A DNA stretch of 64,000 bases from Mesodorylaimus sp. YZB2_4 (lineage: Eukaryota > Nematoda > Enoplea > Dorylaimida > Dorylaimidae), in assembly GCA_030248295.1 (NCBI GenBank), contig JASANH010000938.1:1426001-1490000 (forward strand). Reading direction: 5' to 3'. Shown here in pieces: positions 1 to 59,384 of this stretch. The notes below the pieces were generated by a model that saw only the letters and a list, made by a program, of their open reading frames with translations, was not told the DNA's origin and searched no databases. Both the position numbers and the translations under genes were made by a program. Each line of letters opens with the position of its first letter. The first letter of the stretch is position 1.

Positions 1-3000
1 CGAAGGAATGCTAAATGGCTGGTGTGGGAGGTGACGAATCGAACGACGCTCCCTGGATGAAAATCCACCAGACGTGGCTGACGACGCTGTAGATGGGGTC
101 GGGCAAGGAGTCGACGTGAGGCCCTGCCGATATGGAGTGCGTGAATGGGACGCACCACCACCACCATTCGCACTCGTCCCTCTCAGCAAGTGCAAAATCG
201 TTTCCACGTCTTGATTCAATTTGTTCTCGATGCGTTCCAAGTGTCTAAACAAGAAAACTTGCGTTTAAAACATCTTACCCTGCCCATCGCCAGAGCAATA
301 AAACCTACCTTTCGATGTCTTCCAGCCTTTGGGAAAAATACTTCTGCCTATGCTCGTCTTCCTGCTCAAACTGAGTGGCACCTGTCCGAGGTCGAACGAA
401 TTCAAAGTGTGCATGCTGTTGCTGCGCGGATGGCGATATGGACATAGCTGGAAACAAAAATTACAGTGAGTCAAGAGATAAGCTAGAATGGCAGTAAGGA
501 ATTGTTCAGTCTGCGAGTCAAGCCTCTCGGTCTAATCACTTTAGACAAACCCTTGCGTGGCAGGATAGTTTGGAAGAGGTTATCATGACTCCCACAGCAC
601 TCCTTAAAGTACTAGCGCCATGTACTTACTCGAAGAACTTTTCAACAGCCCGCCAACTCCTGGTTTGCTTGCCGTCATCGAAGCTTGCAGCGAAGGCAGG
701 GTATACCGAGGGCGATGCGCAGCAGTCGTGGCTACCACCGCGGCGCCATCGATGCCACTGACAGGGCGAACGGATGCACGCTTGTTACCACGTGCCGTTC
801 CTTCCTCTCTAACTGGTGGAGGTGGAGTCGCGTCGATATCGCCCTGTGATTGATGTCTTAGTAACGGGACGATCTCCGGTTGGCTGCGCCTTCTGTGCAG
901 AATATGGTTGAACGGGTGCGCTGCCGTAGTCACAGTCAGACCGCTGTGTCCGCTGATACTACCTGAATGATAAGGCGATATGATGTAACTTATACAAATA
1001 ACATAGGTAAAAGCTGAGAGGCTCAAGCACGCACGGACGACTTGAAAAAAGATAGTAAGCTGGCGGCTTTACCTCCCGTATTCCGACTACGCTCAACGAA
1101 AGTTGCAGTGGTAGACGAAGCACGAGGCGCTGTCAAATCACTGACGCTGCGTTTGAGCAGGTCAAGCATTCCTAAAAGAAGCCCCACAAATGGAAAAAAG
1201 AATGTAACAGATGGGAGAGGATGCTTCAAGGCTTGCGATGCTTCAAGGCTGACAGAGAAGAACCTATACAAGCACATCCCTGCCCCATTGCTGCCCCTCC
1301 CAAAGCAGCCGGCTCAAACCAGGAAAACCAAGAAGCCAAGCCGTTCGTACCAACTAAACCACGCGATCCGAGCCGATCGCGGAAATCAAAGTTAGCCGGC
1401 GTCACGTCCTGACCCGCACGAATCGGGGTAAATTCCAGGATTCCCGTACCCGAACGCCGTCTCTCTATCCTAGCCACAGTGGTACCGATCTGTTGAGCAC
1501 TCGAACTTGATCGGCCTATTCCACTGGGGGAATGCAGTTGATGATGGTCCGCCTCGTCGCTGACAACACTTGCCGCTTTCGCAGCCACAGGGCTAGTCAC
1601 AGCCATCTCGACTATGAGTTCATTAGCATGATGATCTTGCTCAGCCGCCTTGGCTTTGGACGCCGCTGCAGCTGAGGCGTACCGATAGCTCCGACGCCGC
1701 CAAATACTGCGTGTACGATTCAATGGTTCGTAGTCTACAAAAGAGAAGATAGGAGGAAAATCAACAAAAGGAAAACAGCGTGACTCACCGTTGCCTTCCG
1801 GTGATCCCTTTCGACATCCAATATCGCCTGGAACATTGGTCTGCAATTCATCCTGAAGCACGGTGGCTCATTACGGTCATTAAATAGCTATCTCAAGACG
1901 AACAGATGTACGAGTGCACGTTGGGGAACACGCTTGCATGGGCGGAGTACATCGAATGGAGCCTGTTAGCTCCAGCCTGCTGCGGGGACCTGGCACAAGA
2001 CCAGTCTGATGAAATTAGGCAGCAGAAGCGCGTCACAAAGGAAGGTTAGCTCAAGATGTCACTCACACCATCCGTAGACTCAGAGAAAAGCCGCATACGA
2101 CGGTTTCGTCTCATCATAGACCCTTGACGCGTTAGTTTTTCCTGTGTGATGAAAACATAAAAGAGCAAGTGTTGTGCAAGAATGACGTGGTGGGGCGACA
2201 GGTAAGATGCTAGGTTTTTCGGGGGGGGGGGGGGGGGGGGAATGGGTGTAGGTACGATCACAACCCGACACACTACAGAAACATTTCTCCATCTTGACCA
2301 GAATGCTGGGCGTGAAGCCTAAGATGGTCTACGAATATCCGATACGTTCTCAGCTTACATCTCGCAGATTAAACGTGATCTGAAGGTTTTGACAGAAGGT
2401 GTCCGCGAATTCGGGGTACATGTCCACGACGTCCAAGAAGTCGTCCCGAAGGATTTTGTGTAAATCGCAGTAAGTCAAGGCGCGAACGTTGCACGACGAC
2501 TTGCCAATAGTGTCGAATAGGAGAGGATTCTCACCAAATACGTCGTCTTTGCCTGAAATTGCAAGCACGTTTAGAACAGATTAGGCGGATTGAGGGAGAT
2601 GCGATGTGGAAGTGGGCTGGTGTAGTTACCCCTAGTAATTTGAAGACGACTCATTCCCATGAGCCAGTAACTTACAGTAAATTATCTCTTTAGTACGGCC
2701 TACCCATGCGCCTTACCCAATATAGCCATGACCATGTCGTCCTTGAGTATCTCGACAGACCCCCGTGCAATAAAATACAAGGCTGTCAGCACATCCCCTC
2801 GGTGCACCAGTGTGTCGCCTGGTGGCGCGTGTGTCGTCCTGAATCTAAAACCAAAGAACGCCAGCATAAGACGGTCCATACTCAACACCAAAAAGGGGTC
2901 TCATACCTCATGCTTAACGCACGCAAGCAGCCGGGGCTGGCGCCAGTGAACGCTAGCGAACTATTGAGCAAAATACGATTTAAATGGAGGCATATATCCG

Positions 3001-6000
3001 CTTGCAGGCACTCGGGAAATTGTTTTAGAACCTGAAACCTAACATTGTGATTTCTGCAAAGTAGAAAAATCAGAACTACTGAACTGACCATGTTCATGTC
3101 AATTCCGTTGGTGTATGTCCAAGCATGCTGGAAGTACTCTTCCAAGCGTTGGCGTAGCGGATTGGGAATTTGGTGAAATCGAATAAACTCGCGCAATCGA
3201 TTCATTTCCGTGTGATACCTGGCCGTGCCCGAGTACAGCCTCTGGATAATAGCTGATACATTACCGAACACGCTGGCGTACATCAGAGCTATAATGTAGC
3301 ATTGGTAAGAATAAGTATCATAGTCAAGAGCCAGACTTTCGCACCAGCCAGCATAGCCCGCCCACCACCAAAGGCATGCAAATCAAGCAAACCGAGCAAG
3401 TGCAAGGACATAACAGAACACGCTGGCGCCACACTCATGCATTACATCCTGTGTCGGAGTGACGGACCAGACCGAGCAGTAAGGGAAGCAGCGCATAAGG
3501 CAACCCTCCTCAAGCAAGGTTGAAGAAAAGAGGTGCGAACCGAGCCAGGATCAGGTTTGCTGGTTCCCGTTAGCAGGCCGCACGCAGGGAAAAATATGCT
3601 TTCTGCGGTACCGTGTTCACTGCTAACTTACAGCCTAACATCATCACGCATATGCCAAACACTTTCTCATTGTCCGTGGTCGGGGCTATGTTTCCGAACC
3701 CGACACTGGTAAGAGTAGAAACGACGAAATAGAGGGCGGTCGTGTATCTCGATCGAAGAGTGGGCCCACCGCCTGTGCGATTTTCATAAGGCGCATTCAT
3801 GTCAGAGGCTAGAACACCAACGAAAAGCATCACTCTTCTCCCCTTGCCTGCACCCGTTATCTGATCTGGCCTGGTCTTGGTCACTGGGTCAGCCTCTCCC
3901 TCTTGCGAGAAACAGAACCACGTGCACTGTGCTCACATATCGAACAGGCCGCCGTGATCGACACGTCTACGTGGAGCAAAGTTCTATTGCAAGCGGTGCC
4001 TCGGGAAGCGCACTCGTGTGCAAGTGCAGAGGCGCACTTACAGCCCAGGATCATCATGATAATAGTGAATATCTTCTCGGAGTCAGTGTTCGGTGACACA
4101 TTGCCAAAGCCGATACTGGTGATCGTACTCAGCGTGAAATACAAGGCAGTCACGTAGCGAGATCGTAGCGACGGCCCGGTGCCGTTCGAATAGGGTGTTT
4201 GCAGATTCGTAGCTGCGATGGGCAGGGCAGGTTAGAGCACAGCATTGAGAACAGGATGAATCGATAGACCAGGGAAAAACATCAGGCTACACAGCAATTT
4301 GCTAGAAACAATTTAAGGCTTCCGCGAGTCTTTCCTGGTTTTCTCCAAGGATGCCCATGTTGCTCAATAAAAGACAAAAGCGTTTTCCGCGAGCAGAACG
4401 GCCTAAGATGGGGCTCACCATGACTTGGGGTGATGAGCGTGTATGGCCAAAGGCCCTAAGTCAAACCCCAGGGAGGAAACCTATGCAATCAATAGTAGTT
4501 AAAGAACTCGAGAGAGGCCTTTGTGGCCGCTTACCTAAGTGATGAAGCCAAGTGATATTGTGCTCGACTACGGTCAGTTCGGTGGCTCCGATAGCGTACC
4601 ATATGCAAGCTAGCCAATGGGCGATGAGGGCGAACGTGGCCATGAGTAAGAGCAACACGGCTGCACCATATTCCGAATAGCGGTCTAATTTGCGTACCAC
4701 GCGTACCAATCGAAGTAATCGCGCTGTTTTGAGCAAACCGATCAAGGTGGTCGTCTGAAAAAGAGATCGATGAAAGAGACCCTCAGGTACGTTTTAGTGC
4801 AGCGAGTAGGGCACAGGGTTGGTTACTAGGGACGGACAAGGAGGACGGAAGCCGCTGCAGCGCATCCTTGCACTCATCTGTCGTACTGTACTGCTACGAG
4901 TATCTACTCCGGTGCGTGTGAATTCCATTCCTCAATTACGGTACATGGGCGCAATCTCTTCGATAGTGTGTAGTCTAGCAAACGACGGCCCCTAAGCGAG
5001 CATGCCCAATCGGCGAGCCATGTTGCACAGAGTCGTTCATGCAAAGCCTAGGCGAATCTACGAGAACACAACATGCTTTCTTCTAGCCATCTAGCCGTAA
5101 GCGCACAAGGAAAATACGTAGGGACGTGTTTGGCTAAAGAATGTTTTCCTGACTTCATTAAATCAAGTGCCACTCTGTTCAATCTACCTGAGCAAGCACC
5201 ACGCGCTGGCACTGCCAGACCTAATCAAATAGGGAGACTCCTGTTTTTATGATCGTTTCAGTGACACGCACGAGATGAAATACTAGCGCTGATAGAGAAC
5301 GAGCAGGGACAAGCCCTGCTTTGTCGGGTGGCAAACTCTCCTCAGTTTCCTCGTTCAGGTATGTTAGATACGAAAAATGATTGCCCCTGATTTTGAAAGC
5401 CGGTTGCTGAAAGTCGCGCATGCGTATGAGCACGCTCTTTTTCCATTTGTTAAAAACCTATCCGCTAACAATCTTGGGCGATGGGTTTGGTATGTTGCCC
5501 GAGCGACGGTAATCACACGAGTGCTCGCATTCGATGAGCCAAGTCGAGCAGCACATGATGAGGCCCTGGCGGAAGCGGAACGATGCACTCTGACGAATGT
5601 GCTAATCGGGGTATCGATTTCGATATTATCGACTCGGACGGGACACTCGATTCGATTGTGTAGACACCTCGCACAACAATGCACCTCGCCTATTTGCTCC
5701 GTCTCATATTGCAATCGTGCGAGCAGCGCCTCACTCGTCTCTCGTTTCCGGTTGCAGACATAGTTGGATGGACGACGAGTCCGTTTTTTATGGGCTTAGC
5801 AAAAGACCAAAGTACGAAGGACTGTACGGCCAAGCACACAAGCAAGCTGAACCATCCAAATTGGGGTAACACTGAAAATGGCCAAAAGAGGACTTACACG
5901 ATCACTGTGCACTAGGCCAAAATCCTGAAACGCGTAGAAGGTGACCAGCCGAGTGCCAGACACGACCCCGGCGACACAAACCTACCTCGTCCGTATGAGT

Positions 6001-6734
6001 ATTAAATAATAATAAATCGAATGGAATGGCCGCCACAACATCGATTATGAACCAACCCTTGAAATAATGCACAGCTATTTTTCCTGGATGCGATACGACC
6101 TCGTCGTTGTCGTTGACGTAAGTGGTTCGAAAATTAATAATTATGTCCACGATGAACATTATATCCACGATCAGATCGACCACTTCCAACGGGTCGCTAT
6201 ACTTGTATTGCCGCCTCGATACGCTGTCCTGAAACATAAAAAAACATCAGTCCCTCGAATTCGAAAAAGGAACATGACCCCCTTGCAAATTCACGAGCAG
6301 CCATGGAATGTGAGCGTTCAAGGTGCAGCAGTTGAAAGAGGAATGCTCGAATTCCCTGACGTCCCGAATTTCGGCACATCGCTTCCGTTTTGAAGCGTTA
6401 TCGAGGTTCAAAACCACTACCCTCCCCCCTCCGAATATTTAGGTCCAATTTACACATCTTCGGGCTGCCTTGCATAGTCAGGAATGCACCCCACCGAAAA
6501 TTCTGCGTCCCCCGTCATTCTCTGATTTACATAAAATTCAAGCGGCCCCAAACTTACTTCCCGAAGAAGGAAAGCGGCCACGTATGGTGTGGAGATAGCT
6601 GTGTATATGACTAGTAGCAGAATAACCCAATCCCAGACAGCCTTGAAGGGGGAGTAGTGCAATATTGTACAATGGTGGATTCGGGTCGGCTGCAATTTGT
6701 ACTCCGGAAGGACATCAGCACCTAGCGAAAGAAC
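1..6734 (-). CDS. erg: ERG-type voltage-gated potassium channel (KCNH2/6/7 class), partial
   Basis: Voltage-gated K+ channel subunit of the plasma membrane. Exons read on the minus strand: 6558-6734 (pre-S1 and S1), 5986-6228 (S2-S3), 4535-4754 (S4-S5, with the Arg ladder [18 protein letters not shown]), then pore exon A 4042-4212 or B 3632-3808, 3089-3288 (end of S6 and C-linker, [19 protein letters not shown]), 2907-3031, 2717-2838 and 2359-2552 (cyclic-nucleotide-binding homology domain, [22 protein letters not shown]), 1789-1852, 1351-1734, 1073-1171, 630-962, 309-447 and 1-244 (tail; coiled coil [20 protein letters not shown]). All junctions are GT-AG and phases agree throughout, giving 905 codons with one pore exon. 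The last exon is still open at base 1, so the stop lies outside. No start codon or PAS domain was recognised upstream of 6734. The resemblance to hERG from S1 to the CNBHD is unmistakable. The tail exons are less conserved, and their assignment rests on phase and on the coiled coil. Confidence 0.93.
2221..2240. repeat. Homopolymer tract of 20 G
   Basis: Uninterrupted run of 20 G on the plus strand, in the 506-bp ERG intron between the exons at 2359-2552 and 1789-1852. On the transcribed strand it is a C run. The open frames that cross it encode only polyproline and are not genes. Confidence 0.95.
3632..3808 (-). other. Pore exon B of the ERG channel, homologous alternative to exon A
   Basis: 177 bp with the same phase 1-1 boundaries as exon A, bounded by acceptor TTCTAG and donor GTAAGT. 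It encodes a second complete pore loop: an NRT glycosylation motif in the turret, [11 protein letters not shown], the filter GFGN followed by IAPTTDNEK, and the start of S6. It is open, has intact splice sites, and keeps the residues a pore needs, so it looks functional rather than decayed. The hERG-631 position is Ala, as in EAG channels. The intron between the two pore exons is 229 bp. Confidence 0.85.
4042..4212 (-). other. Pore exon A of the ERG channel (pore loop, selectivity filter, start of S6)
   Basis: 171 bp, entering and leaving in phase 1, bounded by acceptor ATCGCAG and donor GTAAGT. It encodes the turret with an N-glycosylation motif (NGT), the pore helix, the filter GFGN followed by VSPNTDSEK, and the start of S6. 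The residue two after the filter Asn (hERG position 631) is Ser, as in inactivating ERG channels. The upstream exon ends at 4535 and the next common exon starts at 3288; both accept this exon without a frame change. Confidence 0.9.
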
Positions 6735-57749: not shown

Positions 57750-59384
57750 CTGGCAGACCTGTGCGACCTCTGAAAGTCCAAGATCAAAGGTCGATGTACG
57801 AAGATCAGTCCTGAATATGCTCACTAATCATGGCTTTTCTAGCTCATTAGGGATGGTGTACTAGAGAGCCACAATGAGTGCGTGTAAGATGATGTACAGC
57901 ATGTAGTTTCGTCTAGACGTCGTGTCGGAAAGACTGGCTCCTGGGCGTTGGTGTCAGCTTTGAACATGTTGTGAACTATTTGAAACTTGGAGGACAGCAT
58001 ATTTGTGTCAGACGATAAGTTGCTGTTTTCGCGCTGGAAGCAAACTTGGCTGCTTAGCCTCTTATGTTTTCGCTGAACGTGCCTTTGTCCTAGTGGCCAA
58101 TACTTCGAGTACAGAGCCGAGCCTTGCCAAGGACATTAGTCTGTCGCGCTTGTCATGTCATTTACTGTCGCCAAGCCTCGCCAAAATACACTCCTGGGCG
58201 TAGTACTTGTGGTCCTTATTAGTTGTGGCTAGCCTGGGGGCCATAACGTACTCTATGAACAAGTTGGGTTCCAAGACTTGTTTCGCCGCGGACGGATTTA
58301 AAATATTGCGCAAGATAAACTGTCAAGGTCACCATCGGGCTTCGGCTGTATGACGGCTGTGGAACAGACATTCTTGGCCAGCCGTTTGTAAGATAAGTCG
58401 GTGAAGCAATGAGTAGTCTCATTCTGCAAGCACGGCAGGGGTGCTTTGTTGGCTGATGCATATGGAATCGATACCATGGCACGTTGGCGCGAGCACTAAG
58501 CTCTCGACATTGAGGGCGATTCACAGACCTAAGCAGCTGTCTCCTCCCCAGCCAATATGCCAGCTATCACCCTGAACAGATCAAGTCCGCTTTTACGTCT
58601 CTGAATACTTCTCCAAGCACCTGTGCATTATGCCACCGGCCAATCTAAAGCCACTGAACCGTTGGTTCAGCGCTCCCCGATTGACCATACGAACCTCGTT
58701 GCCAGCTCTCCCACCGCCTGATTCCAACTAGGATTCAGTATCGCTCAAGATTAGGTCAACGGACTTTATTGCTTTTTTCTCGACACTAGGCAAACAAAAT
58801 CTTCGTTCGCTCATGTTTTTTGCAGCTGGGCAATGCTCTCGGCACTTATATCATGTAAATCCTCCTGCGGCCTAAACAGTTATACCCGATTGCGCTGGCA
58901 CGTGGTCGGTACGGATCGTCCACTGACGAGTCCTTAAACCTAATTTACGAATCCGAGCACGAAGCGAAAACGGGACGGGCTGAACAGACGGGCTCGTTCA
59001 GGTTGTGTTCTTCGATGCCCTTGACGTCACTCAGATCTCTTCTGCCTTGTGACCCATTCATGCGTGTGTACCCAGATTAGAATGCATCCCTTGCTTCAGT
59101 TCAATGGTAAGGATTTCATGGAAGCTTGTCCGTCTTGCACTTATGAAACAAGAGATGCATTAGACCAGTTTCGATTAACAAATAGTCAATAGGCGCGTGG
59201 ATCAAAGGGTGCAGTCTCCATGGGTACATTCATGCCCGGGCGGGCTTCTCGTCGATACGCTATCCAATCCGTATCATAGGCCCAGACTCAATAACAGGAG
59301 GCAGAATTATATAACCAACGTCATTGTGATCAGGAGCGGACCTAGAAAATGAAGCCTAGTTAAACAGAATTATGTTTTTCCTCT

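Follow-up and report, generated by a model that had tools for sequence, protein, structure and literature searches.

A predicted pair of mutually exclusive pore exons in two paralogous ERG-type potassium-channel genes of a nematode

An ERG-type potassium-channel gene lies on the minus strand in the first 7 kb of the DNA analyzed here (a 64-kb stretch of contig C2, referred to below as the window), and it carries two tandem, homologous pore exons, A and B. The arrangement of these exons argues that a transcript very probably takes either A or B, and that both exons are used as alternatives. They have equal phases, lengths divisible by three, and intact splice sites, and their conservation as a pair under selection is indicated by a paralogous ERG gene on contig C146, by the pattern of substitutions among the four pore exons, and by the dN and pS values between the two genes. 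We therefore propose that A and B would form a mutually exclusive pair in both paralogous genes. As a whole, an explanation that combines this exclusive pair with splicing control by an RBFOX-type protein and/or an RNA stem and with a resulting change in channel inactivation appears likely to us. The original prediction concerned the exon pair of the window; the C146 gene, a serine/alanine difference at the position of hERG residue 631, UGCAUG motifs after exon B, and a conserved element after exon A go beyond it.

When the upstream constant exon, exon A, and the downstream constant exon are spliced together, the best match of the resulting protein is human KCNH2 (E 2.9e-99), and the same is true when B takes the place of A (E 8.5e-100). 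The second-best family is KCNH1, with E values of 7e-61 and 2e-62 for the A- and B-spliced proteins, respectively. Thus, the proposal that A and B are interchangeable between S5 and the C-linker holds, as either splice matches KCNH2 at an E value of about 1e-99. The gene also encodes a filter of the SVGFGN type (SIGFGN in A), segments S1-S6, and a cyclic-nucleotide-binding homology domain. By these sequence features it is an ERG (Kv11) potassium channel and, given its nematode origin, one of the UNC-103 type. An eag/PAS domain was not matched in the window or in the other examined loci at a threshold of E 1e-3, and a genome-wide search at E 1 gave no match on C2 or C146 and matches only in the EAG genes on contigs C181 and C190; the probe was a human sequence, and a divergent domain could escape detection with it. 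Full-length vertebrate ERG has an N-terminal eag/PAS domain and short ERG isoforms do without it, so the missing domain does not refuse the gene membership in the ERG family. By best match, C. elegans UNC-103 and human hERG belong to the same channel family as the window gene, and UNC-103 isoform a is described as having a short N-terminus, of 79 residues, ahead of the membrane part that served in a chimera (PMC6158242).

The features of the two genes are collected in Table 1.

Table 1. Features of the ERG gene in the window (window positions) and of its paralogue (positions on contig C146)
Feature	Position	Strand	Remarks
Exon, start of S1	6558..6734	-	tblastn with hERG piece, 81% over 64 aa, E 7e-30; 3' boundary by eye
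Exon, S2-S3	5986..6228	-	tblastn with hERG piece, 80% over 70 aa, E 1e-34; boundaries by eye
Putative 27-nt mini exon (DFGLVHSDR)	5898..5924	-	between S3 and S4 exons; sole evidence an open frame with AG/GT flanks; boundaries by eye
Upstream constant exon, S4-S5	4535..4754	-	phase 1 at end; 93% protein identity to C146 paralogue
Pore exon A, 171 nt	4042..4212	-	turret, pore helix, filter SIGFGN, Ser at hERG 631, S6 start
Conserved element after A (GCACTTGCACACG...)	4008..4027	-	about 20 nt, 14 nt into intron; local alignment against paralogue's intron
Intron between A and B, 233 nt	3809..4041	-	322 nt in paralogue
Pore exon B, 177 nt	3632..3808	-	turret, pore helix, filter SVGFGN, Ala at hERG 631, S6 start
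UGCAUG (RBFOX-type) motif 1	3436..3441	-	intron after B
UGCAUG (RBFOX-type) motif 2	3375..3380	-	intron after B
Downstream constant exon	3089..3288	-	rest of S6 and C-linker; 98% protein identity to C146 paralogue
Cyclic-nucleotide-binding homology domain exons, whole span	2359..3031	-	tblastn with hERG piece
C146 upstream constant exon	170621-170840
C146 pore exon A2, 177 nt	171173-171349
C146 pore exon B2, 183 nt	171672-171854
C146 UGCAUG, three copies	171911, 171982, 172009		intron after B2
C146 downstream constant exon	172264-172463

The two complete pore exons are found on the minus strand at exactly the coordinates predicted for them, and the equal boundaries and intact GT-AG sites ascribed to them are likewise seen in the sequence: both exons have phase 1 at entry and at exit, carry AG just before and GT just after them, and read through without stops in the correct frame. 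Frame 1 of either exon, which is the non-coding frame, contains stops. At the protein level, A and B of the window gene are 60% identical, and a tblastn search with A against the window and three other loci matched B at E 6e-22, indicating that their likeness is not due to chance. A third pore exon was not seen in the window with four pore queries, whose remaining tblastn matches there had E values of at least 0.28. The tblastn queries for the S1, S2-S3, and cyclic-nucleotide-binding homology domain exons were pieces of hERG; the last of these domains was matched in three pieces (3031-2897, 2855-2712, and 2568-2359) at E values from 4e-32 to 5e-26. The 27-nt mini exon is a possible exon and the least secure piece of the gene model. 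At positions 2221-2240, inside an intron of the gene, the plus strand reads 20 consecutive G, which are C on the strand of the gene.

The second ERG gene, identified on C146 by a genome-wide search, has the same exon order, the same phases, and GT-AG splice sites. Between the two genes, protein identity is 83% for A with A and 85% for B with B, and comparisons of A with B give 60-64%. Of 13 informative sites, 12 pair A with A and B with B, one is crossing, and none groups the exons by gene. Because A resembles A and B resembles B more closely than A resembles B, and because the site patterns agree, the exon duplication is, as judged from these comparisons, older than the duplication of the ERG gene. 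That the two genes are two haplotypes of one locus is ruled out by a pS of 0.62-0.76 between them. A mixed-species assembly was also considered and was thought unlikely, the strong FOX-1-like match in the assembly being single, an argument that draws on one gene. A pattern search for relatives in other collections returned 17 stretches in viral contigs and 121 in genome contigs, none of them confirmed as a relative; both collections hold few or no animals and are uninformative on nematodes.

Several further observations concern the genome as a whole. ERG (C2 and C146) and EAG (C181 and C190) are each present in two divergent copies, which could reflect an old large-scale duplication, and the two EAG genes have one pore match apiece. 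The 145-Mb assembly has 133 matches to Col_cuticle_N, the nematode cuticle collagen family, and none was found in 14 control genomes, those named among them being prokaryotes. The cox1 family has fifteen matches over scattered contigs (C73:251445-254668, C273, C741, C47, and others), most of which contain stops under the standard code and resemble mitochondrial DNA copied into the nucleus. One copy reads sensibly in the invertebrate mitochondrial code, as judged against conserved positions. From the collagen matches and this cox1 copy the genome is judged to be that of a nematode. PF00379, taken as a test for an arthropod, gave 0 matches, but it gave none in its control either and was set aside.

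Given that a tandem duplicate may simply decay, one reading of the locus is that B (or A) is a non-functional copy, and the original prediction had named a relic B as the outcome that would overturn it. Between the two ERG genes, pS is 0.76 for A, 0.62 for B, 0.67 for the upstream exon, and 0.75 for the downstream exon, so that synonymous sites are at or near saturation, and the corresponding dN values are 0.119, 0.124, 0.06, and 0.019. The pore exons are slightly less constrained than their neighbors, chiefly in the turret, and A and B are constrained alike. The filter, the splice sites, and the reading frame of both exons have remained intact in two genes despite near-saturated synonymous sites, and a dN of 0.12 for A and for B alike also speaks against a decaying duplicate, which we consider highly improbable. 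Since the protein has been conserved through synonymous saturation, both exons are, on this measure, under selection and B is no relic. Two functional exons might nevertheless be used without a strict either-or, with skipped and doubled products being lost through failed protein folding. The absence of frame control is in keeping with this reading, as the four splice outcomes (A, B, A and B together, or neither) are all in frame in both genes. However, a product with both exons would have another pore loop inserted into S6, one with neither would lack the pore, and we regard such loose usage as unlikely. The preferred reading is still that of mutually exclusive exons, as originally proposed on the basis of the window gene and now supported by the parallel conservation of the pair in the C146 gene.

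How, then, would the two exons be kept apart? The claim that nonsense-mediated decay is powerless against double inclusion is borne out in both genes, as exon lengths of 171 and 177 nt in one and 177 and 183 nt in the other are multiples of three and the A-plus-B product is open. With all outcomes in frame, neither the frame nor decay can enforce the choice. Steric crowding, in which the 5' splice site of A lies too near the branch point of B, or incompatible classes of splice sites could in principle block the joining of A to B. The branch point of B could be a distant one, like that in alpha-tropomyosin. Both crowding and class incompatibility are listed for other exclusive exons (PMC3585155). 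On the other hand, the introns between A and B, at 233 and 322 nt, are ample for ordinary splicing, and no mixture of U2 and U12 splice sites was seen in the two pairs, all six introns of which begin with GTAAG and end with AG. Because these six introns belong to one ordinary class, class incompatibility cannot enforce the choice, and we judge a block of either kind to be improbable. With frame, decay, and splice-site class excluded in both genes and crowding unlikely, a direct regulator is to be expected for the exclusive pair, in agreement with the direct splicing mechanism that had been called for.

A candidate for such a regulator is suggested by UGCAUG, an RBFOX-type motif that is present in two copies in the intron after B of the window gene and in three copies in the corresponding intron of the C146 gene, and that none of the remaining four introns in the two pairs contains. 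Against a local background of 62 copies in 178,000 bases (89 kb counted on both strands, with the five intronic copies included), the Poisson probabilities are 0.0066 for two copies and 0.00043 for three, or 8e-6 jointly. Shuffled sequences reached two copies in 66 of 2000 trials and three copies in 4 of 2000, and reached both jointly in none of 2000. Some hexamer or other reached two copies in both introns after B in 545 of 2000 shuffles; taken blind in this way the hexamer test is weaker, and the case thus rests on UGCAUG being the known motif. Among sliding windows of equal length, at least two copies were present in 27 of 3512 and at least three in 12 of 3496, counts that include the site itself. 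Further copies are found in the region of the window gene (one, at 5043-5038) and downstream in the locus of the paralogue (three more). Between the two genes, the introns after B show no conservation that could be aligned (P 0.34). On contig C404, the genome encodes a FOX-1-like RNA-binding domain (58802-58921, 83% over 40 aa; 58976-59074, 64% over 33 aa), so that a shared motif above chance near the exon is accompanied by an encoded protein of the RBFOX type.

Elsewhere, a UGCAUG downstream of an exon often favors the exon that precedes it. In C. elegans, the exclusive pairs of unc-32 (exons 7a and 7b) and egl-15 (exon 5) are controlled by the RBFOX proteins ASD-1 and FOX-1 through intronic UGCAUG (PMC3585155). 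In unc-32, the motif lies after the second exon of the pair, as in the ERG genes, is needed for exon choice, and favors the upstream exon together with UNC-75 (PMC3585155); neither the unc-32 nor the egl-15 exons are channel pores. We give about even chances to direct splicing control of the ERG pair by an RBFOX/FOX-1 protein acting through UGCAUG after B, the favored exon being either A or B. Such a protein would direct exon choice against a default that is set by access to the splice sites.

The default itself may involve a conserved element in the intron after A, whose alignment between the two genes scores 30, as compared with a maximum of 27 in 500 shuffles. Among the three introns, only the one after A contains a conserved block, the first of the other two giving a P value of 0.95 and the second being the intron after B. 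In both genes, GCACUUGCA of the element can form 9 bp with UGUAAGUGC, the 5' splice site of A itself, and comparable stems reach at most 4-5 bp at the remaining four donors. The length of the stem at the 5' splice site of A has P values of 0.016 and 0.043 in the two genes; the mean pairing of this site is not significantly above that of shuffles (P 0.19 and 0.11). Since the stem does not differ in sequence between the genes, no covariation is available as a test. Inter-intron duplexes, examined with a crude method, did not rank below those of shuffled sequences in both genes, the second and third introns giving P 0.01 in the first gene and 0.99 in the second. We consider it possible, although somewhat doubtful, that a conserved stem, or a protein site at the element, masks the 5' splice site of A; if so, it would set default access to the exons.

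At twelve positions the residue is constant within each exon type in both genes and different between A and B. With residues given in the order A, B, hERG, these are L, M, I at hERG 593; V, T, V at 612; T, V, T at 618; L, V, F at 619; I, L, L at 622; I, V, V at 625, in the filter; V, I, V at 630; S, A, S at 631; S, N, S at 636; and, at the start of S6, T, G, S at 641, M, V, V at 644, and I, M, L at 646. At 631, both A exons have serine and both B exons have alanine, and alanine is also found at this position in the two EAG genes of the same genome. Among solved structures, B matches 5va3 best; this entry has alanine at 631 and leads the serine sequence by the small gap of 335.5 versus 334.2 bits. 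The hERG substitution S631A, whose alanine is the EAG residue, "largely eliminated inactivation," with a shift of its voltage dependence that came to +102 mV in oocytes and to about +88 mV in mammalian cells; activation changed little, and the substitution has been found in human short QT syndrome (PMC6119704). Given the serine/alanine difference and this effect in hERG, the choice between A and B probably switches inactivation, which is predicted to be hERG-like with A and weak with B.

A channel that received A, and with it Ser631, would accordingly be expected to inactivate fast, as hERG does, and one that received Ala631 together with the eleven other B-type residues would show weak, EAG-like inactivation and a sustained outward current; in this specific form we place the prediction slightly above even. 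With eleven further type-specific sites, including 625 in the filter, gating cannot be read from one residue, and the assignment stays a prediction. The exons might instead act mainly as a pharmacological, trafficking, or turret switch, through glycosylation, turret length, or the start of S6, with inactivation being secondary. The turret lies inside the swapped exon and differs most both between A and B and between the genes, and the differences at 641, 644, and 646 would also fit this reading. However, when exons of one type are compared, no part is less conserved than the turret, whereas the differences in the pore helix and filter are fixed within each type, and we hold a mainly non-inactivation role to be rather unlikely, if appreciable, in comparison with the predicted switch in inactivation.

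We know of no alternative pore exon in C. elegans UNC-103 or human hERG, and searches of mostly open-licence literature returned none for either. Among the matches listed in searches of mostly open-licence literature, alternative pores were not described for ERG or for any KCNH channel, so that the original statement that no ERG channel with pore-exon choice had been described stands to this extent. Choice between pore exons is known in NALCN and reported for Shaker; in the ERG family, and with a difference at residue 631, it was not to be expected. Kim et al. in 1997, cited in PMC2727049, reportedly described alternative exons for the pore-forming region of Shaker (Kv1) in the spiny lobster, which like the ERG pair would concern the pore of a voltage-gated potassium channel, but in another channel family. 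In NALCN of invertebrates, the exclusive exons 15a/15b and 31a/31b swap the pore together with the selectivity site (PMC4436565). NALCN is a four-domain cation channel in which exon choice alters sodium/calcium selectivity, whereas the ERG pair keeps a potassium filter and is predicted to change inactivation.

We tentatively suggest, as a picture that we would put at somewhat less than even, that an old splice switch operates at the ERG pore in nematodes of this lineage, in which A (Ser631) would give a fast-inactivating, inward-rectifying, IKr-like channel and B (Ala631) a weakly inactivating, EAG-like outward rectifier, the switch having been kept through gene duplication and being steered by FOX-1 and UGCAUG. 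The A/B pair would offer a clean system for splicing, in which in-frame exons are separated without decay, crowding, or splice-site class and a candidate regulator can be named. Residue 631 of hERG is among the best-studied determinants of inactivation, and if the suggestion is true, evolution would be using as an exon choice the very substitution that was engineered to abolish inactivation. Natural pore cassettes that differ at 631 on an otherwise identical channel, in two genes, would provide a ready-made test of how inactivation is built and of why animals would tune it by tissue.
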